A stretch of DNA of 64,000 nucleotides from Neoroseomonas eburnea (GTDB lineage Bacteria; Pseudomonadota; Alphaproteobacteria; Acetobacterales; Acetobacteraceae): the NCBI RefSeq assembly GCF_018129005.1, contig NZ_JAAEDL010000002.1:141897-205896 (forward strand). The letters run 5' to 3'. The position numbers were made by a program, and so were the translations under genes. Numbering within the stretch: the stretch's first letter is position 1; each line of letters begins with the position of its first letter. The notes beneath the pieces are model-generated. The model was not told the DNA's origin. It searched no databases and saw only the letters and a list, made by a program, of their open reading frames with translations. Positions 26,568 through 43,952 of this stretch are shown here, piece by piece.

Positions 26568-26728
26568 ATCGCTCATGATGCGGCCGACCCTATGACGGCC
26601 GGCCTGGTGGGCACCAGCGGGTCCGCCGCCATTCCCACCGCCGCCCTTGATCCACCCCTCGTGTGGCGTCTCCGGCGGTCCCCGCGCTTTCGGGTCCGGG
26701 TCCCCATCGATGACGACCATAGGGGAGG

Positions 26729-26766
26729 CACTGACGCCTGGTCACGTAAGGAGACGAGCGTCAGTG
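26729..26766. repeat. 9-bp inverted repeat near the prophage edge
   Basis: CACTGACGC (26729-26737) and GCGTCAGTG (26758-26766) are perfect inverted copies separated by 20 bases. The structure stands between the end of the phage genes and the IS110 remnant. It could be a terminator, an attachment-site arm or an IS boundary. Confidence 0.45.
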
Positions 26767-26823
26767 CAATATGTTGAATCCGCGCAGAACGGAATCGTCG
26801 ACTTCGATGTGCAGATCAAGCTT

Positions 26824-27087
26824 GGGGTGCGGCGGATGCTGCTCAACACGCGCCGCGACGTCGAGAACGGTATTCGGGCGCTGCTGCGCGACGTCGGGCT
26901 CAAAGTCGGCACGCCGAGCCGCAAAGCCTTCCCGGCGCGCGTGCGCGAAGTGGCCGCGGATGACGCGGTGCTGGCAAGCACGAGCGTCGCCAAGCGCCGA
27001 GGCATGGCACGCGCACGCGTCGCGGTCGCCCGCAAGCTGGCCGTAATCCTCCACCGCATGTGGGTCGATGGCGGCGAGTTCCGCTGG
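26824..27087 (+). pseudogene. IS110-family transposase remnant
   Basis: A short in-frame piece joins two separated parts of an IS110/IS1111 transposase. The first is the mid-region just before the C-terminal domain (RRDVENGIRALLRDVGLKVG, 26860-26910). The second is the C-terminal end (MARARVAVARKLAVILHRMW, then GGEFRW, to 27087). The junction is near 26980. The N-terminal DEDD catalytic domain and the C-terminal Ser-containing region are missing, so the copy is inactive. It marks the border between prophage and the lipid operon region. Confidence 0.75.
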
Positions 27088-27606
27088 GCAAACAGCATAC
27101 GGCGAAGGCGGTCGCTGTATGACGAGAGGAGTTTCAGTTCCTGTCGGACGACGACGGAGCCGCGCCGTTCCCGTGGGGACGATGGCGAGGCGATCTCGCT
27201 GAGAGTCCGCAGCCGGAGCGCAGCAATGCCTCGAAGGTCGCTGACCTGACCCCATTATGTGGCGACCGCACGTCGACCGCGAAGAGAAGCGAGTTGACCT
27301 ACGGGAATGGCTCGAGGCGAGAGGGACGGGACAGAGGGACAGCTGGACGCCCACAACCCCAATCACAGAGGGCTCTCAGGTTACACAGCTTGCGGCCTTG
27401 CTCGAGGAGAAGGTCGTGGAGCTCGTCCTCGTCCGTTCGCGGCGTGACACCGGCCGAGCTTTTGGCGGCGCCGGCGCGCCGGGGGCTTCCCTCCCGCGCC
27501 GCGATGTGCTGCACCCGCACATCCATGCCTTCACCGGCGGCATTTTCCCGCGCCGGTCCGGGGCGCGCCGGGCGCGCGCGCCGCGCCATAACCGAGAGGA
27601 CCTTAG
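27088..27606. other. Intergenic region, no gene recognised
   Basis: About 520 bases between the IS110 remnant and the ketoacyl synthase gene. Several open frames exist, but none has a convincing ribosome-binding site or recognisable product. The last bases (GAGAGGACC) provide the ribosome-binding site of the next gene, so the promoter of the operon probably lies here. Confidence 0.5.
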
Positions 27607-28653
27607 GTGCGTATCGTCTCCCTGGCCTGCGCGACGCCTTCGATGCGGATCGACAACCCCACCTTCCTCACTCTGCTCGACGAACGGGTCGCCGCCGACG
27701 GAATGCCGCCGGCGGCGCGGGCCGAGGTGGCGGAGAAGGTGCGCCACATCTTCGACCGCGCCGGTACACGTGAGCGCTACATGCTCTACCCGCCGCGCCC
27801 GGGCTACGCTGCGAGCCTGCTGCAGCGCGCGGCGGAGGATGCTCTCGCCGCCGCCGGGCGCGACGCGGAGGACGTCGACCTGATCGTCTACTGCGCGGTG
27901 GCGCGCGGCTGGATGGAGCCTTCCACCGCCGCCGCCGCGCAGGCCCTGATCGGCGCGCGCAACGCCTCCTGCTTCGACGTGATGGAAGCCTGCGCCGGCT
28001 GGATGCGCGCCATCGAGGTGGCCGAGGCGCTGATGCGCTCCGGCCGCTACCGTAACGCCCTCGTCCTCGGAGTCGAGGCGGGCATGCAGGACACGATCAT
28101 GCCGCGCGGCGGTCAGACGGCGGTCTTGGACGAGCACTTGGCGGGCTTCACCCTCGGCGAGGCGGCGTCCGCCGTGCTGCTCGAACCGGGGGAGGGCGCG
28201 TCGCCCGAGATCGTGCTGCGCTCGGATGGTGAGCTCTACGACGTGTGCATGATCCCGCTGCCGACGGTCTCCGCCTTCCTGCCGGCGGAGGCGGCTGCCC
28301 AGCCCGAGCCCGGCCGCTTCCTCTCCCATGCCGACCGCCTCTTCACCCGCGTCATCACCGCGCTGGTCGGCGTGATGCGTCCCCGCTTAGCCAAGGGCGG
28401 GCATGAGGGGATCGACCTCTTCATCCTGCACGCGGCCAGCTCCCGCGCGGGTGAAGTGGTGCGCCGCGCCCTCGACATCCCGCCAGAGAAGTGGCTCTGC
28501 CCGCACGACGTGTTCGGCAACACCGTCTCGATGTCCATGCCGGTGGCGCTCGACCACGCGCTCAGGACCGGACGCGTGAAGAAGGGCGACCGGGTGTGCT
28601 TCCTGGTCGGCAGCGCGGGGATCTCCTACGGCTACGGGATCCTGACAGTGTGA
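27607..28653 (+). CDS. KAS III-like 3-oxoacyl-ACP synthase
   Basis: 348 aa, GTG start with GAGAGGACC upstream. Thiolase-fold ketosynthase of the FabH type: nucleophile Cys129 in [10 protein letters not shown], His275 in [11 protein letters not shown] and Asn305 in [10 protein letters not shown], so the Cys-His-Asn triad is complete. The N-terminus ([15 protein letters not shown]) and the wide active-site region differ from housekeeping FabH. A specialised condensation on acyl-ACP or acyl-CoA is likely. The stop overlaps the next gene, so it is co-translated with an MlaC-like and ABC export system, pointing to production of a lipid that is then moved to the envelope. Confidence 0.9.
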
Positions 28654-29225
28654 GGCGCGCCGCGGCGCTCCTACTGCCCGCCATGCTGGCGGCGGCGGTC
28701 GCCCTCGCGCAGGATGCGCGGGGCTTCGTCGCGGAGGTCGAGGCGCGGCTGCGCGCCGCGCGAGCCCTACCTGACCCGGCGGCGCGCCAGGCCGCGTGCC
28801 GTCAAGCGTTCGCGACGGCCTTCGACGCGCACGCGCTGGCGCAAACCGCCGCCGGGCCGCGCTGGGAGGGGTTCGATGCGGCGCTGCGGTCCGAACTGAC
28901 CGCAGCCACGGGGGCGCGGCTCGGCCGGGAATGCGCCCCCCTCCTCGCGGCGCCGGAGGCGGGCGCGGCTGAGGTGGTGCGGGAGCGGGCGACCTCCTCG
29001 GGCTGGCGCCTGACGACGCGCCTCGCGCGCGCCGGGACCGGCGACCTGATCCTTGTCTGGGCCGTCGCGCCGGGCGGCGCGATGGGCTGGCGCCTGACCG
29101 ACATGAGCGTGGACGGCGTCGGCTTCGGGGCCACGCTGCGCTCGGAGCTGGACGCGCTGCTCGCAGTGCACGAGGGCGACGCGCGCGCCGCGGTCGCGGC
29201 CCTCGCGGCGGGCAGCCGGCGATGA
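28650..29225 (+). CDS. MlaC/Ttg2D-like periplasmic protein
   Basis: 191 aa, GTG start overlapping the ketosynthase stop. Hydrophobic signal peptide ([16 protein letters not shown]), then a single MlaC/Tgt2-type domain: an Ala-rich helical start, [20 protein letters not shown] matching the usual FARLALGRHWR region, and [20 protein letters not shown] near the end. Members bind phospholipids or other lipids in the periplasm. The family assignment is by pattern and is weaker than for its neighbours. It lies between a ketosynthase and a LolD-like ATPase, so its ligand may be the product of the first enzyme. Confidence 0.7.
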
Positions 29226-29899
29226 CACCGCCCCTGCTGTCCCTGCGCGGCGTGCGTCGCACCTTCGACCACGGGCGGATCGTCGCGCTGGACGGAGTGG
29301 ACCTCGCGATCGTGGCCGGCGAACGGCTGGCGATCCACGGGCGCAGCGGCAGCGGCAAGTCGTGCCTGATGAACATCGCCGCCGGCCTGGACCGTCCCGA
29401 TGCGGGCTGCGTCGCTTGGCGCGGGCGGGAGGTGCGGACGCGGCGCGAATGGGCGGCGCTGCGTCGGCAATCCATCGGCATCGTCTTCCAGGAATTCCAC
29501 CTGCTGCCGACGCTGACCGCCCAACTCAACGTAGAGCTCGCCCTGATGGGCAACGGCCTGGCCGCGACGGAGCAGGTCGCGCGGGCCGAGGCGGCGCTGC
29601 GGCGCGTCGGGCTCGGTGGCCGGCTCGGCCACCTCCCGAACGAGCTTTCGGGGGGCGAGCGCCAGCGCGTAGCGATCGCGCGGGCGATCGTGCGCGAGCC
29701 GGACCTGCTTTTCGCTGACGAGCCGACCGGGAACCTCGACCGCGCCAGCGCGGCGCAGGTGGCGAGCCTGCTGTTCGAACTGCAGGACCGCACCGGGATG
29801 GCACTCGTTATCGTCACGCACGACCCCGGCCTCGCCGGGCTGTGCGGGCGGCAGGTGCGTATCGAGGATGGCCGCGGGGCTGAGGAGGCGGCGGCATGA
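29222..29899 (+). CDS. ABC transporter ATP-binding protein (LolD/MacB type)
   Basis: 225 aa, overlapping the MlaC-like gene. Walker [11 protein letters not shown]-loop [13 protein letters not shown], signature [15 protein letters not shown] and Walker [13 protein letters not shown] followed by the switch His in VTHDPGL. The LLPTLTA and DEPTGNLD forms are typical of the LolD/MacB/FtsE branch, which drives mechanotransmission rather than substrate passage through the membrane. It pairs with the FtsX-like permease downstream (ATGA overlap). Confidence 0.93.
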
Positions 29900-31002
29900 C
29901 GCTGACCGGCTTCGCCCTGCGCAACCTGTTGCGCCGGCCGGCACGGACCATCCTCACGGTGCTCAGCATCGCGCTTGCGGCCGGAACCGTGGTCGGGCTG
30001 CTCGCTCTGGGGCGCGGCATCACCGAGAGCGTAGCGCGGGGGCTCGAAGAGAGCGGCGCGGAGTTGATGGTGGCGCAGCGTGGTGCGACCGAGATCATCA
30101 GCGCGCGCCTGCCCGAGAGCTACGGGGGCCGGATCGCGGCACTGCCCGGCGTGCGCTCGGTCTCGGCCGAGCTCTATGCCTTCGCGGCGACCGCCGAGGG
30201 CCGGCAGTTCCTGCTGGTCGGCTGGTCCACCGGCGCACCGTCCTGGGCGCGCGCGCCGCTCGCCGCGGGGCGACTGCCGCGGCCGGGGGCGCGGGAACTC
30301 CTGCTGGGCGACGTGCTGGCGGAAAGCCTCCGGCTCGGGGTCGGGGCGCGCCTCGAACTCTTTGAGGAACCCTTCGAGGTCGTGGGCATCACGCGCTTCG
30401 GCACGGCGATGAACCGCGGCCTCGGCATCCTGCCGCTCGATGTGCTGCAGGCCGCCGCGCTCCGCCCGGGGCAGGTCACCGCCTTCTCGGTCGGCGCCGC
30501 CGAGGGCGCGGACCAGGCGGCGCTGCGCGCCGCCATCGCCGCGGCATTGCCGGTCACCGTCTCGGACACGCGAGAACTGCTGGAAGGAGACCGCAACATC
30601 GGCATCCTGCGCGCGGTCTCGCGCGCCATCTATGCGGTGGCCCTGGTGATGGGCGGGCTGAGCCTGTTCTCGACCCTGCTGATGTCCGTCCAGGAGCGCA
30701 CGCGGGAAATCGGCGTGATCGCCGCGATGGGGTGGTCTGATGTGCGTATCATCGGGCTGATCGCGCTGGAAGGGCTGATCCTGGGATGTGCCGGCTGCGC
30801 GGCGGGGCTGGTCGTGGGACTCCTCACCTCCAGCATCTTCGGAGCGCTACCGGCAATCGGCGACTTCGTGGCCTTCACGCCCGACCTTGCCGACATCGCG
30901 CTGCCGTTCCTGGCCGCGCTGCCGCTCAGCGCGCTGGCCGCGGCCTATCCGGCCTGGCGCGCGGTGCGGCTGATGCCGGCGGAGGCGCTGCGGCACTTGT
31001 AG
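29896..31002 (+). CDS. ABC transporter permease (FtsX/MacB type)
   Basis: 368 aa. One transmembrane helix at the N-terminus ([20 protein letters not shown]), a long periplasmic domain (about residues 45-230) and three helices at the end ([58 protein letters not shown]). [17 protein letters not shown] is the family's coupling motif. It works as a dimer with the upstream ATPase, probably passing lipid between membrane and periplasmic carrier. It ends the operon. Confidence 0.93.
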
Positions 31003-31163
31003 GGCGCGGGCGGGCCGGACGCTGGCCTGCGCCGGGGCAAGCGGCGCCTTCCGGATCCCCGCACCATCCAGGAAGCCCGAACCCCGCGGCCCCCCTGGTG
31101 GAAGCCGAGCTCGATCAGTCGACCCTGCCCGGCAATGGGCTTGCCCCGCTTTTGTGGACACGG

Positions 31164-32039
31164 TTACGCGGCTATTGCCGCTGAATGGAACGCTGCTGCC
31201 TTCTGCTCGGGTGTGATGTAGCCGAGCGCGGAGTGCAAGCGGCGCTTGTTGTAGAAACCCTCGATGTAGTGGAACACATCGGCCCTGGCTTGGTCGCGCG
31301 TCTGGTAGTCGGCCTCCTCGACGAGTTCGCCCTTCAGCGTCGCGAAGAAGCTTTCCATCGGCGCGTTGTCCCAGCAGTCGCCCTTGCGGCTCATCGAGCA
31401 GAGCATGCCATGCGCCAGCAAGCGGGCGCGATAGCGATGCGCGGCGAATTGCACGCCGCGGTCGGCGTGGTGGATCAGGCCGGGCAGCGGCCGCTGGCGC
31501 GCGATGGCCATGTCGAGTGCGGCAAGCGCCAGTTCGTGGCCGAGGTGGTCGGCCATCGCCCAGCCGACGACCCTGCGCGTGTAGAGATCGAGCACCGCGG
31601 CGAGATACAGCCAGCCTTCCGCGGTCCAGATGTAGGTCAGGTCGGCAAGCCAGACCCGGTCCGGCGCCTCCGCCGTGAACTTGCGTCCGAGCAGGTTGAG
31701 CGCGATCGGGAAGGCGTGGCTGCTGTCTGTCGTCCGCCGGAAGCGGCGCCTGCGGCGCGCCGCCAGGCCCATGCCGCGCATCAGGCGGGCGACCCGCTTG
31801 CGGCCAACCCGGCGGCCGCGGGCGCACAGTTCGGCATGCACGCGCGGGCTGCCATAGCGGCCCCGGCTGGCCGCGTGGGCGGCCTGGATCTCGGCAGCCA
31901 GCGCCCGGTCGGCGGCCGCCCGCGCGCTCTCGGCCCGGCTTGCCCAGGTATAGTAGCCGCTGCGGCTGACGCCGAGCACCTCGCACATGACGTTGACGGG
32001 GAAATCGGCGGCGTGGTCGCGCATGAACATGAAGCTCAC
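31164..32039 (-). CDS. IS3 transposase OrfB (DDE integrase)
   Basis: 291 aa, GTG start at 32039 overlapping orfA by 4 bases. N-terminal HTH_21 region (NVMCEVLGVSRSGYYTWASR), then the rve integrase core with first Asp in WLADLTYI, second in HHADRGVQF and Glu in APMESFFATLKGE, and ending RLHSALGYITPEQ. Together with OrfA it catalyses transposition. No programmed frameshift signal was clearly seen at the overlap. Confidence 0.93.
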   Translation of the reverse strand: MSFMFMRDHAADFPVNVMCEVLGVSRSGYYTWASRAESARAAADRALAAEIQAAHAASRGRYGSPRVHAELCARGRRVGRKRVARLMRGMGLAARRRRRFRRTTDSSHAFPIALNLLGRKFTAEAPDRVWLADLTYIWTAEGWLYLAAVLDLYTRRVVGWAMADHLGHELALAALDMAIARQRPLPGLIHHADRGVQFAAHRYRARLLAHGMLCSMSRKGDCWDNAPMESFFATLKGELVEEADYQTRDQARADVFHYIEGFYNKRRLHSALGYITPEQKAAAFHSAAIAA

Positions 32040-32431
32040 CTCCGGTCCGCCGCCTGGCCGAAGATGAGCGCAGCTCGCTTTAAGATGTCGCGCTCCATTC
32101 GAACGCGCTCGAGCTCCTTGCGCAGCCGGGCGATCTCGGCGGCCTGATCGGCCGGGCTCGGCCCGACGCGGCGCGCCGGCGCCGCCTGCTCTCGTCGGGG
32201 CGTCGGCGCCGGCGCGCCGCTTACCCCGGGCGAACGCCCCTCAGCCCAACGCAGCCAGGAACGGACCAGACGATCCGGCAGACCCAGTTCGGCCGCCACC
32301 TGCGATGCCGAGCGACCGCTACGCATCGCGGCAATCGCCTCCCATTTGAACGCGTCGGGGAAACTCCGACGCCGTTTCACGCCCTCCACCATCGTCACCT
32401 CCTGGCCCTTCAGCCTATCAAAGGTGTCCAC
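32036..32431 (-). CDS. IS3 transposase OrfA (HTH)
   Basis: 131 aa. HTH_Tnp_1 domain (RSFPDAFKWEAIAAMRSGRS, then QVAAELGLPDRLVRSWL), an Ala/Pro-rich linker and a C-terminal leucine-zipper-like helix (AAEIARLRKELERVRMERDI). It binds the IS ends and dimerises. It lies just inside the right inverted repeat. Confidence 0.92.
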   Translation of the reverse strand: MDTFDRLKGQEVTMVEGVKRRRSFPDAFKWEAIAAMRSGRSASQVAAELGLPDRLVRSWLRWAEGRSPGVSGAPAPTPRREQAAPARRVGPSPADQAAEIARLRKELERVRMERDILKRAALIFGQAADRR

Positions 32432-32449
32432 TCAGGCGGGGCAGGCCCA

Positions 32450-32890
32450 ATCCGCCGTTGGGCCTTGCCCGCGTGCGCGAGAGCGTTGCGTGCGAAGTGG
32501 ACGCGGCAGCGCTGCCAGGTGGCCCGCAGCACTTTGGTCACCGCCGCCTTCAGGCCTTCGTGGGCGTCGGAGATGACGAGCTTCACGCCGGCCAGGCCGC
32601 GCCGCTTCAGGGTGCGCAGGAAGTCCAGCCAGAAGGGTTCCGCCTCCGAACTGCCGACCGCCATGCCGAGGACCTCGCGCCGCCCGTCGGCGTTGACGCC
32701 GACCGCGATGGTCACGGCCACGGGAACGATGCGGCCAGCCTCGCGGACCTTCACGTAGGTGGCGTCGAGCCAGAGATACGGCCAATCACCCTCAATGGGG
32801 CGGGCGAGGAAGTCGCGGACGCGGTCATCGATCTCGGCGCAGAGGCGGGAGACCTGGCTGCGGCTGATCCCCTCCATGCCTCGCGGAGAA
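32450..32890 (-). pseudogene. IS256-family (mutator) transposase fragment
   Basis: An internal segment, in frame, starts at GMEGISRSQVSRLCAEIDD and runs through GDWPYLWLDATYVKVREAGR, GRREVLGMAVGSSEAEPFWL and VKLVISDAHEGLKAAVTKVL to RNALAHAGKAQRRI, where the IS3 right end cuts in. The N-terminal third and the C-terminal catalytic-Glu region are missing. Sequence left of the IS3 does not continue it, so part was deleted as well as interrupted. Confidence 0.88.
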
Positions 32891-32939
32891 CGGGAGCTTC
32901 TTGCTGAAGGACGCCGATTCCGATCCGGATTACGGCGCT

Positions 32940-33120
32940 GCCTGTGGGCGCCATTGCCGTCCTCATAGTCAGCGGCGATCATCAGCAGGCGGAAGCGCAG
33001 CATGTCGGCAGGGCTGCGCCGGATCCGCTCCGGGTGTGGCGGATCGCTGATCCAGTCGGCGAGGCGCTTGGCCAGGCCACAGCACGCGTTAGCCTCGCGC
33101 AGCGCCGGAAGTCTGCGATC
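32940..33120 (-). pseudogene. IS1380-family transposase fragment
   Basis: Upstream of the IS256 piece, on the same strand and frame, LPALREANACCGLAKRLADW and PADMLRFRLLMIAADYEDGN match the N-terminal region of IS1380-type transposases. It breaks off right after EDGN and is followed by unrelated sequence and the IS256 fragment. It is a remnant with no catalytic core. Confidence 0.75.
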
Positions 33121-33287
33121 CGATGATGGGGCGCAGCCGTTGAGGCGGACGCCGGTCGGGGTCAGCGCTGGCCGGGGACAATACCGCTGCCCCCTGGAAG
33201 CGGTGAGCCAGCGCAAGAATCGGAGTGTCGACCGGCCAATGCTTTCCTAACGTGGCCCATCCGGCCATCACGGAACATGCCTGCCTG

Positions 33288-40270: not shown

Positions 40271-40735
40271 ATGACTCCCAGCATTCCCCAGCCGCTCAAG
40301 GCGGAACACGACGACCTCCACGAGGCACTGGTGCGGGCGATCCGCGCCGGCGGGCGCACCGGCGAGGCGGCGCGCGCCGTCGCCGGCGCGCTGCATCCGC
40401 ACTTCCTCAAGGAGGAGGAATACGCCTTGCCGCCGCTCGGTCTTCTCGGGCGCGTCGCACGCGGGGAGGACGTGTCCGGCGCGGCGGAGGCGGCCATCGC
40501 GATGGCGGAGCGGCTGACGGCCGAATTGCCGGACATGCTCGGCGAGCATGGCCGGATCGTCGCGACGCTCGGGGCGCTGGTCGAGGCCGCGCGTGCCGAG
40601 GGACACCCCGAACATGTCCGCTTCGCGGAGGAGCTGATCCTGCACGCTAGGACCGAGGAGGAGGTTTTGTACCCCGCGACCATTCTCCTCGGCGAATACC
40701 TGAAGGCGGGCAGGAAGCCACTCGACCATGCTTGA
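40271..40735 (+). CDS. Hemerythrin-like protein
   Basis: 154 aa from ATG 40271 (GGAGGAGAG upstream). Four-helix HHE pattern: LKAEHDDLHEAL, LHPHFLKEEEYALPPLG, LGEHGRIVATL and LHARTEEEVLYPATILLGEY. These supply His and Glu ligands for a diiron centre. It may sense or bind oxygen or nitric oxide. The C-terminus overlaps the exporter adaptor gene by 8 bases, so the two are translationally linked. Confidence 0.88.
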   Translation: MTPSIPQPLKAEHDDLHEALVRAIRAGGRTGEAARAVAGALHPHFLKEEEYALPPLGLLGRVARGEDVSGAAEAAIAMAERLTAELPDMLGEHGRIVATLGALVEAARAEGHPEHVRFAEELILHARTEEEVLYPATILLGEYLKAGRKPLDHA

Positions 40736-42050
40736 CCTTCCGGGCGGGCCGGCCAAGGCCCTCGCACCCACGGCAGCTCCCGGTGGCCGGTCAACCACGG
40801 AAGGAGCGCCCGCAGCGGAGGTGGCGCAGCAGCAGCCTGCCCCATCCGGCCCCGCGCAGGAGGCCCGCGCGCCGGCGCGGCGGTTCCGCCCGGGCCGCCG
40901 GACCGGCGTCGCGCTCCTCGTCCTCGCGGCCGCACTGGGGGCAGCGTATCTGCTGTTCGCCCAGCCCCTGGAGGTCGGCGTGGCGGCGCCTCGGCACGGC
41001 GTTCCGGTCGAGGTCTATGGGCTCGGCAGCGTCGAGGCGCGCGTGGTCGCGGTCATCGGCTTCGAGGTGCCGGGCACGATCCGCGAGTTGCACGCCGACC
41101 AGGGTGACCGGGTCGCGGCGGGCGCGCTGCTCGCCACGCTCGACACCCGCCAGCAGGCGGCCCGCGTCGCCTTGGCCGAGGCCGGCGTCACGCAGGCCCG
41201 CGCGGCGCTCGAGGAGGCCGGGTCGGGCCTCGGCCGGGCCGAGGTCGTGCTGGCGCAGGCACAGCGCACCAGCGCGCGGCGGCAGGAACTGGCGCGCGGG
41301 CGCATCGTCTCCGAGCAACTGGCCGAGGAGGCGCTGACCGCCGTCGAGACCGCGGCAGCCGAACGGTTGCAGGCGACCAGCCGGGTCCACGTCGCGCAGG
41401 CCAACCTCGAACAGGCCGCGGCGACGCTCGCGCGCGAGCGCACGCTGCTCGACCAGCACAGCCTCACCGCCCCCTTCGCCGCGGTCGTGGTGACGCGCCA
41501 CCGCGAACGCGGCGCCCCGGCGCGGGCGGCCGACCCGGTCTTTGACCTCGTCGATCCGGACACGGTGTGGGTGCGCGCCTATGTGGACGAGGCGCTGTCC
41601 GGCCGCCTGCGCGTCGGCCAGCCGGCGTCGATCCGGCTGCGCTCCCTGCCGGGACAGGCATTCCAGGGTGAGGTCGCGCGCATCGGCATCGAGAACGACC
41701 GGGTCGGCGAGGAACGGCGGGTCGAGATCGCCTGCCGCGACTGCCCCGCCGACTTCCACCTCGGCGAGCAGGCGGAGGCGGTGGTCACCACGGCCCGGCT
41801 CGACCAGGCGCTGCTGGTCCCGCACGCGGCCTTCGAGGAGTCGGATGCGCGCGGCGGCGTCTTGTGGACGGTGGAGGAAGGGCGGCTGCGGCGGCGCCGG
41901 GTCGCCTTCGGTCACCGCACCCTGGATGGCCAGGTCGAGATCCCGGCCGGCGCGCTGCCGCCGGGTGCGCGCGTGGTGGCCGAGCGACCACGAGGGCTGC
42001 GGGAAGGGCGCAAGGCCATCGCGAAACCGTCCGAAGGGGGCGCGCGGTGA
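40728..42050 (+). CDS. HlyD/RND-type membrane fusion protein (DevB-like)
   Basis: 440 aa. Cytoplasmic Pro-rich head, one transmembrane helix (GVALLVLAAALGAAYLLFAQ), split lipoyl domain (GTIRELHADQGDRVAAGALL; LTAPFAAVVVTRHRERGAPA), a long coiled coil (residues about 145-235) and a beta-barrel (VWVRAYVDEALSGRLRVGQP). It is the periplasmic adaptor of an ABC exporter with the next two genes. It overlaps the hemerythrin gene, an unusual partner. Confidence 0.93.
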   Translation: MLDLPGGPAKALAPTAAPGGRSTTEGAPAAEVAQQQPAPSGPAQEARAPARRFRPGRRTGVALLVLAAALGAAYLLFAQPLEVGVAAPRHGVPVEVYGLGSVEARVVAVIGFEVPGTIRELHADQGDRVAAGALLATLDTRQQAARVALAEAGVTQARAALEEAGSGLGRAEVVLAQAQRTSARRQELARGRIVSEQLAEEALTAVETAAAERLQATSRVHVAQANLEQAAATLARERTLLDQHSLTAPFAAVVVTRHRERGAPARAADPVFDLVDPDTVWVRAYVDEALSGRLRVGQPASIRLRSLPGQAFQGEVARIGIENDRVGEERRVEIACRDCPADFHLGEQAEAVVTTARLDQALLVPHAAFEESDARGGVLWTVEEGRLRRRRVAFGHRTLDGQVEIPAGALPPGARVVAERPRGLREGRKAIAKPSEGGAR

Positions 42051-43177
42051 ACCTCGCCTGGCGCGACATCCGCCACAACCTCGGCCGCTTCCTGTTGACC
42101 TGCCTCGGCGTCGGACTGCTGCTCGGCATCGTGCTGTCGATGATCGGCATCTATCGCGGCCTCGTGGACGACGCGCTGGTGTTGGTGCGGGCGCCGCAGG
42201 CGCAGATCTGGGTGGTCGAGGCCGAGCGGCGCGGCCCCTTCGCCGAGGCCTCCCGCCTGCCGCAGGACACGCGCGACATGATCGCCCGGCTCGAGGGCGT
42301 GGCCGCGGCGGGCGCCGTCACCTACCAGTCGGTGGAGGCGACGCTCGGGGAGCGCAAGCTGCGCCTCAACGTGGTCGGCCATGAACTCGGGCGGCCGGGG
42401 GAGCCGGCGGCGCTGGTCGCTGGCCGGCCGATCACGCGCGGGCACTACGAGTTGGTTGCCGACCGTCGCGCGCGGATCGCCCTCGGCACGACGATCCGGC
42501 TCGGGCGCAATGTCTTCACGGTGGTCGGCCTGACTGAAGGGCAGGTCGATTCCGGGGGCAACCCCGTCGTCCACATGACCCTGGCCGATGCGCAGCGGCT
42601 GCAATTCGAACTGGAAGGCGACGCCGCCCGGGCCCAGGCCGCACGCGGCACGGGGCGGACCCCGCCCACGGTCAATGCGGTCGTCGCGCGCCTCGCCCCC
42701 GGCGCCTCGGCCGAGGCTGTGGCCGCGACCATCCGGCGCTGGAAGCACCTCTCGGCGCTGACCCAGGCCGAGCAGGAGGCGATGCTGTTGGAATCCGTGG
42801 TGGAGAAGGCGCGGCGGCAGATCGGCCTGTTCACCGCCACGCTGCTGCTGGTCTCGACCGTGATCATCGCCCTGATCGTCTACACGCTCACGCTCGACAA
42901 GACGCGCGAGATCGCGACGCTGAAACTGATCGGCGCGCCCGACCGCACCATCGTCGGGCTGATCCTGCAACAGGCGCTGGCGATTGGCGCGATCGGCTTC
43001 TTCGCCGGCGCCGCGCTGCTGGTGAACCTCGTGGACATCTTCCCGCGCCGGGTCGTGCTGCTGCCGCAGGATGCGCTCGCGCTCGGGGGCGCGACGCTGG
43101 TGGTGTGCTTCATCGCCAGCGCGCTCGGCGTGCGCCTCGCGCTGCGGATCGACCCGGCGCGGGCGCTGGGTGGCTGA
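42047..43177 (+). CDS. ABC exporter permease (FtsX/DevC-like)
   Basis: 376 aa, GTG start overlapping the adaptor stop. N-terminal helix (GRFLLTCLGVGLLLGIVLSM), a large periplasmic domain, and three C-terminal helices (LFTATLLLVSTVIIALIVYT, LALGGATLVVCFIASALGVR). The motif DKTREIATLKLIGAPDRTIV is typical of FtsX-like permeases of the DevC group. It works with the adaptor and ATPase on either side. Confidence 0.93.
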   Translation: MNLAWRDIRHNLGRFLLTCLGVGLLLGIVLSMIGIYRGLVDDALVLVRAPQAQIWVVEAERRGPFAEASRLPQDTRDMIARLEGVAAAGAVTYQSVEATLGERKLRLNVVGHELGRPGEPAALVAGRPITRGHYELVADRRARIALGTTIRLGRNVFTVVGLTEGQVDSGGNPVVHMTLADAQRLQFELEGDAARAQAARGTGRTPPTVNAVVARLAPGASAEAVAATIRRWKHLSALTQAEQEAMLLESVVEKARRQIGLFTATLLLVSTVIIALIVYTLTLDKTREIATLKLIGAPDRTIVGLILQQALAIGAIGFFAGAALLVNLVDIFPRRVVLLPQDALALGGATLVVCFIASALGVRLALRIDPARALGG

Positions 43178-43178
43178 G

Positions 43179-43952
43179 ATGGCGGGCCAGGGCGATGCCG
43201 GGCGGGCGGGGGCGCGGGTGCCGCGCGTCGAGCTGCGCGGCATCTCGAAGCATTTCGGCAGCGGCGCGGCGCGGGTCGATGCGCTGAAGGATGTCAGCCT
43301 CGACATCTTCGGCGGCAGCGTGGTCGGCCTGCTCGGACCGAGCGGCTCGGGCAAGAGCACGCTGCTCAACGCGATCGCCTGCATCACCGAGCCCAGCCGG
43401 GGGCGGATGCGCCTGGACGGGGATACGGTCTACGACAACCGCTGGCTGCGCCCCGACCTGCGGCGGCTGCGGCTCGAGAAGATCGGCTTCATCTTCCAGT
43501 TCCACAACCTGCTGCCCTTCCTGACCGCGCTCGAGAATGTGCGGCTCGTGCTCGACCTGGCCGGCTGGCCGCGTGAGGCGGCACGGCAGCGGGCGGCGGA
43601 ACTGCTCGACTACCTCCAGGTCGGGGACCGCGGGCAGGCGCTGCCGGCGCAACTCTCGGGCGGGCAGGCGCAGCGGGTTGCGATCGCGCGGGCGCTCGCC
43701 AACCAGCCGCGCATCATCCTGGCCGACGAGCCGACCGCCGCGCTCGATTCCGAGCGGGCGGGGATCGTGATGGACCTGCTGCGCGGGGTCGCGCGGAAGA
43801 ACGACGCGGCGGTGGTCGTCGTCACCCACGACGAGAAAATCTTCGACCGGCTCGACGAGATCTTCTACCTGAGGGACGGTTGGCTGGTCCCGCCGGAGGC
43901 CGCACCCACGCCGCCCCGGCTGGCGATCGCCTCCAGCGACATGCGCCTGTGA
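43179..43952 (+). CDS. ABC exporter ATP-binding protein (DevA-like)
   Basis: 257 aa. Walker A GPSGSGKSTLL, Q-loop IFQFHNLLPFLTALENV, signature [15 protein letters not shown], Walker B IILADEPTAALD, and switch His in VTHDEKIFDRL. It completes a DevBCA-type exporter; relatives export glycolipids, small molecules or haem-related compounds. No outer-membrane component is encoded nearby. Confidence 0.95.
   Translation: MAGQGDAGRAGARVPRVELRGISKHFGSGAARVDALKDVSLDIFGGSVVGLLGPSGSGKSTLLNAIACITEPSRGRMRLDGDTVYDNRWLRPDLRRLRLEKIGFIFQFHNLLPFLTALENVRLVLDLAGWPREAARQRAAELLDYLQVGDRGQALPAQLSGGQAQRVAIARALANQPRIILADEPTAALDSERAGIVMDLLRGVARKNDAAVVVVTHDEKIFDRLDEIFYLRDGWLVPPEAAPTPPRLAIASSDMRL

Follow-up and report, generated by a model that had tools for sequence, protein, structure and literature searches.

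The window, a stretch of 64,000 nucleotides from Neoroseomonas eburnea, carries on its plus strand at positions 27607-31002 an operon of four intact genes that encode a condensing enzyme, an MlaC-like lipid carrier, an ABC ATPase and a permease. Tentatively, and at slightly less than even chances, we read this operon as a compact unit for lipid synthesis and transfer, in which a non-decarboxylative enzyme would join two acyl-CoAs into a long-chain beta-keto acid or ketone, which the ABC pair would then extract and the MlaC-like protein carry onward.

Operon anatomy and genomic setting

The genes run, where the sequence-only reading had placed them, from a condensing enzyme of the FabH/OleA superfamily (27607..28653, 348 amino acids, GTG start) through an MlaC-like periplasmic lipid carrier (28650..29225, 191 amino acids, GTG start) and a LolD/MacB/YbbA-type ABC ATPase (29222..29899, 225 amino acids) to an FtsX/MacB-type permease of the type VII ABC kind (29896..31002, 368 amino acids). 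Each of the three junctions is a 4-base overlap (GTGA, ATGA and ATGA), and all four products score above the curated Pfam cut-offs, which confirms the stop-to-start arrangement described earlier. The four genes have a GC3 of 0.89-0.91, above the value of about 0.70-0.72 in the flanking DNA, a difference in line with coding versus remnant sequence. A promoter scan around the operon found none, and the one terminator-like site (31131-31145) was no better than shuffled sequence yields.

Upstream lies a prophage that the sequence-only reading had overlooked, spanning about 3027-26501 of the window with terminase-like, portal, major head, tape measure, tail and endolysin genes, and extending left past the window into G000:C2 (L136); its lysis genes stop about 1.1 kb short of the operon. 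By eye, a serine-recombinase-like gene sits about 15 kb beyond the left edge of the window, and replication-like genes also lie to the left. Downstream, positions 31164-33216 on the minus strand hold an IS3-type orfA/orfB pair and then a fragment of a Mutator-family transposase. The earlier claim that the unit stands between transposon remnants is thus partly right: it holds for the downstream side, while upstream the stretch 26647-27249, which may be an IS110-like remnant, had no Pfam match and the prophage adjoins. Movement as a transposon module was not established, with no transposon seen beside the related copy described below, the window copy abutting a prophage, and the repeats around the unit being short or degenerate with no sign of a composite transposon. 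Phages often place cargo just beyond their lysis genes, and the unit may be such prophage cargo, or else transposon cargo or host DNA; when attachment repeats of the prophage were sought, one 17-bp, chance-like match was the sole result. Apart from this finding, the window holds at about 40728-43952 a second export operon, recognized by eye, with a MacA/DevB-like adaptor, an FtsX-type permease and an ATPase.

The active site of the condensing enzyme

Functionally, the first gene product is a condensing enzyme by Pfam (ACP_syn_III_C, 63.9 bits; ACP_syn_III, 41.1 bits) with no signal-like segment and with the complete Cys-His-Asn triad that had been noted before: C129 (codon at 27991..27993, plus strand, by alignment to FabH and OleA), H275 and N305. 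The label of KAS III-like followed from this triad, yet OleA has the same one, so that naming the enzyme from its triad alone can mask an OleA-type active site; condensing enzyme is the part of that label that stands, whereas plain KAS III is at odds with a Glu-Pro signature typical of OleA. This signature emerged when a profile of the enzyme clade, whose four members are the window enzyme, those of L026 and L112, and a Paraburkholderia caribensis plasmid gene (L003), was aligned to Xanthomonas campestris OleA: RDYLEPSTA of OleA falls opposite RGWMEPSTA of the window enzyme, with E104 (codon at 27916..27918, plus strand) on Glu117. Across a motif alignment of 28 sequences, the Glu-Pro pair was present in all four clade members and all nine OleA rows and absent from the 13 FabH and the two type III PKS rows. 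In the same alignment the FabH motif HQAN gives way in the clade to HAAS, HSVS or HASS, an HxxS form that is OleA-like, and FGDGAG gives way to a T-x-G form, as in OleA; the window enzyme reads HAAS and TLGEAAS at these two positions. The Glu117-Pro pair is a mark of OleA found in nearly all OleA proteins tested, Glu117 is essential for the Claisen condensation, and the beta-keto acid that OleA makes loses CO2 spontaneously to give a ketone (PMC7064751). Judged from these residues, the window enzyme, with its OleA-like signature, probably works like OleA and probably joins two fatty-acid chains, though we do not file it as an OleA.

Indeed, the enzyme falls below every NCBIfam family cut-off, with 137.7 bits against 249 and 130.9 against 292.1 for the FabH models, and 101-103 bits against 285 for PRK09258. 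The FabH models (137.7 bits) thus outscore PRK09258 (102.8 bits), both below cut-off, and a sequence comparison with PDB chains likewise puts FabH nearest; PRK09258 gives FabH proteins 101 bits as well and therefore does not separate OleA from FabH. For the two solo clade members, which lack the transporter, PRK09258 was the best-scoring model. Evolutionarily, the clade joined OleA with support of 97/93, in a tree with long branches where the grouping rests on the outgroup, and trees without the outgroup did not resolve the order of clade, OleA and FabH. An AlphaFold2 model of the enzyme, built from two sequences, had a mean pLDDT of 47 and was left out of the analysis. OleC had no match at 1e-20 in the enzyme's own genome and no match in the L026 genome, while OleD gave weak matches only in both (own-genome best 4.5e-16, 32% identity); an OleA working without these partners is still conceivable.

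Compared with OleA of the Xanthomonas oleABCD cluster and of head-to-head olefin and beta-lactone pathways, the window enzyme thus has in common the triad, the Glu-Pro at Glu117, and the HxxS and TxG forms, but identity reaches about 28-34% at most among clade and superfamily relatives, the PRK09258 cut-off is missed, and a co-operonic transporter rather than oleBCD stands beside the gene. A true OleA with an olefin pathway was not accepted, given that missed cut-off and the lack of a convincing oleC or oleD. A housekeeping FabH role was rejected because the motifs differ and the host genome has one more gene, which is FabH-like.

The carrier, the ABC pair and their relatives

The 28650 product scores 44.3 bits on Pfam MlaC (PF05494; cut-off 26, E 2.2e-11) and begins with a hydrophobic, signal-like segment at about residues 1-20. 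Its AlphaFold2 model, built from five sequences, reached a mean pLDDT of 86.4, and its best structural matches were all MlaC, Ttg2D, toluene-tolerance or phospholipid-binding proteins (TM-score up to 0.74), so the predicted fold is that of the MlaC/Ttg2D phospholipid carriers and the MlaC-like assignment of the sequence-only reading passed its fold check. C50 and C95, invariant in five trio carriers, could form a disulfide. The hopanoid carrier HpnM was rejected as the identity of this protein (a weak match, 15 bits).

The assignment of the last two genes to a LolD/MacB-type ATPase and an FtsX-type permease was upheld as well. The ATPase matches Pfam ABC_tran (116.9 bits, 1.3e-33), keeps Walker A, LSGGE and Walker B, and scores 200.8 bits on YbbA and 195.1 bits on LolD in NCBIfam, both under cut-off (307.75 bits for LolD, TIGR02211). 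The permease matches MacB_PCD (71.1 bits) and FtsX (58.7 bits) but reaches 58.6 bits against a cut-off of 362.45 on the LolC/E model TIGR02212, and its profile finds LolE, LolF and MacB as closest structures; MacB_PCD and FtsX domains paired with a LolD/MacB-type ATPase make this a type VII ABC system. The unit therefore shares with Mla/Ttg2 an MlaC-family periplasmic carrier and its fold, whereas the ABC proteins of Mla/Ttg2 are MlaE and MlaF and the operon has no MlaE, MlaF or MlaD/MCE gene, its ABC partners being a MacB/FtsX permease and a LolD-like ATPase. With LolCDE-LolA and MacAB-TolC it shares the LolD-like ATPase and the LolE/MacB-like permease, but its carrier is MlaC-like rather than LolA or MacA, and it has a single permease gene. 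An MlaC-type carrier with a LolE/MacB-type ABC partner in place of MlaFEDB thus makes a transporter that combines two systems. In YbbAP-TesA, a type VII ABC pair works with an enzyme acting on acyl groups (PMC12646458); TesA is a periplasmic hydrolase, whereas the window unit has a condensing enzyme without a signal-like segment, and a separate lipid carrier.

When GTDB contigs were scanned with a permease alignment, the four genes were found in identical order in a Rhizobiaceae bacterium (contig CAJPFN010000106.1, L026), each overlapping its successive neighbor by 1-4 bases, at identities to the window of 55.7% (enzyme), 38.9% (MlaC-like), 68.0% (ATPase) and 57.8% (permease), a 39-68% range. 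In the three genes measured, differences between the two copies cluster at third codon positions (48-52%, versus 20-31% at positions 1 and 2), an excess expected under coding selection. The four-gene order is beyond chance on these grounds: shared order, overlaps and third-position excess. By-eye names for the L026 neighbors are a dihydroxy-acid dehydratase and an oxidoreductase on the opposite strand.

The four-gene unit is rare among the genomes scanned. No enzyme match was found at 1e-50 among 78 relatives (34 congeners included); a further 384 genomes of the class, in which the best few candidates per genome were scored, had none at 1e-45; 60 relatives of the L026 genome gave one distant match; a single-sequence scan of genome contigs and a scan of viral contigs found nothing; and among plasmids the P. 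caribensis gene was the only clade member found, and the permease had no match at 1e-25. Whether the enzyme occurs mostly apart from the transporter, as the sequence-only reading had asked, has a mixed answer: both close clade members (those of the window and of L026) have it, and both distant ones, 28-34% identical, are without it. No description of a condensing enzyme paired with an MlaC/type VII ABC system was found in the open-access literature, which is weak evidence. On P. caribensis plasmid 2 (L003, 9749-13390), the clade enzyme lies directly 5' of a hybrid histidine kinase with receiver and Hpt domains, a neighbor that suggests a possible signaling role for the product there. At L131 (755-8334), an OleA-like gene lies directly 3' of one for a 2178-aa polyketide synthase-like protein.

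Relatives of the transporter stand beside other acyl-chain enzymes. Both Neoroseomonas lacus (L017/L028) and Roseomonas sp. HF4 (L018/L029) have an MlaC-ATPase-permease trio that lies in convergent orientation to a type III PKS, a methyltransferase and an FAD oxidoreductase, the same genes as in alkylresorcinol cassettes described in the literature (PMC10896814). A like transport trio thus adjoins such a cassette in two congeners, whereas in the window unit the enzyme is OleA-like and there is neither methyltransferase nor oxidoreductase. HF4 also has a further trio (L019/L027), and convergent with it (L019, 340-8326) stand two radical SAM proteins, one of which resembles the hopanoid methylase HpnR, together with an alpha-oxoamine synthase and a GNAT protein, possibly a sphingolipid-like or other specialized lipid pathway. 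In an alphaproteobacterial MAG (L030, 5579-9110), an oleate hydratase lies directly 5' of a type VII ATPase-permease pair, where no MlaC-like match was found. Among more distant pairs, one at L020 (2838-6301) is an ATPase-permease pair followed by a weakly LolA-like protein and a predicted metal-dependent hydrolase, so a similar ABC pair may there be served by another type of carrier, the LolA-like match being weak; L021-L023 are loci similar to L020. Counting type III PKS twice, and alpha-oxoamine synthase and oleate hydratase once each, a type VII ABC pair with an acyl-chain enzyme beside it is a common theme among these relatives, and YbbAP-TesA fits it; since convergent genes are not co-transcribed, the link in these convergent or adjacent cases is by neighborhood alone.

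Proposed mechanism and alternatives

Mechanistically, the signature residues suggest that an acyl chain would be loaded from acyl-CoA onto C129 and that E104, like OleA Glu117, would activate a second acyl-CoA, so that the two chains join by a Claisen condensation without decarboxylation; the resulting two-chain beta-keto acid may then lose CO2 to become a ketone. With no OleC and no convincing OleD orthologue, the product probably remains at the beta-keto acid or ketone stage, or is modified by unlinked enzymes. Being hydrophobic, it would enter the inner membrane, from which the LolE/MacB-like permease and its ATPase would extract it by type VII mechanotransmission, and the MlaC-like protein, its fold as predicted, would bind it and ferry it through the periplasm toward the outer membrane. 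We infer both the functional coupling of enzyme and transporter and the outward direction.

In favor of this account we count the L026 order and overlaps, the Glu-Pro pair with HxxS and TxG, the MlaC fold, the permease type, the acyl-chain neighbors, YbbAP-TesA and the genome's other, FabH-like gene; against it stand the higher FabH scores, the long-branched, outgroup-dependent tree and the two clade members without transporter. Those FabH-type top scores, together with FabH as the nearest PDB chains and the complete triad, would also suit a decarboxylating KAS III that uses a malonyl donor to make a beta-ketoacyl product or primer for a specialized lipid moved by the transporter. We consider this unlikely, given the Glu-Pro at the OleA Glu117 position, the loss of HQAN and FGDGAG, and the presence in the genome of another, FabH-like gene.

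It is less likely still that ordinary phospholipids or lipoproteins are the cargo of the carrier and its ABC pair, with an enzyme that is merely co-expressed, for example under envelope stress, and has no substrate in common with them. The carrier fold is that of a general phospholipid carrier, and the trio occurs elsewhere without the enzyme, as the enzyme does without the trio; the 4-bp overlaps, the L026 order and the trio's place beside acyl-chain enzymes in relatives speak against it. A transporter that works inward or cleans the membrane, ridding it of unwanted lipids or solvents or remodeling them in the way suggested for YbbAP-TesA, would be in line with the toluene-tolerance proteins among the close structural matches and with the extraction for breakdown that the YbbAP-TesA authors propose (PMC12646458). 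We hold this to be very unlikely, as the co-operonic enzyme forms bonds rather than breaking them and the type VII systems LolCDE and MacAB are outward movers.

Within the preferred synthesis-and-transfer reading, the operon could be a self-contained envelope-lipid module of a new kind, in which a non-decarboxylative, OleA-like enzyme and a dedicated Lol/MacB-MlaC exporter, perhaps prophage cargo, deliver long-chain ketones or beta-keto acids to the outer membrane, the exporter being an interchangeable delivery module for several classes of acyl-chain enzyme; this bolder version we regard as doubtful. Of the lipid synthesis and export unit proposed at the outset, what stands is a tight, conserved operon of enzyme, carrier and ABC pair, while outward transport was not established. 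Apart from phospholipid, LPS and lipoproteins, it is still poorly understood how hydrophobic lipids get to the outer membrane, and one synthase with one hybrid transporter in four genes makes a small, testable case in which sequence predicts product class and cargo. The unit also ties type VII ABC systems to specialized lipids across several enzyme families, and, with synthase, lipid pump and carrier in one kit, it may allow the cell both to produce an unusual envelope lipid and to send it outward.
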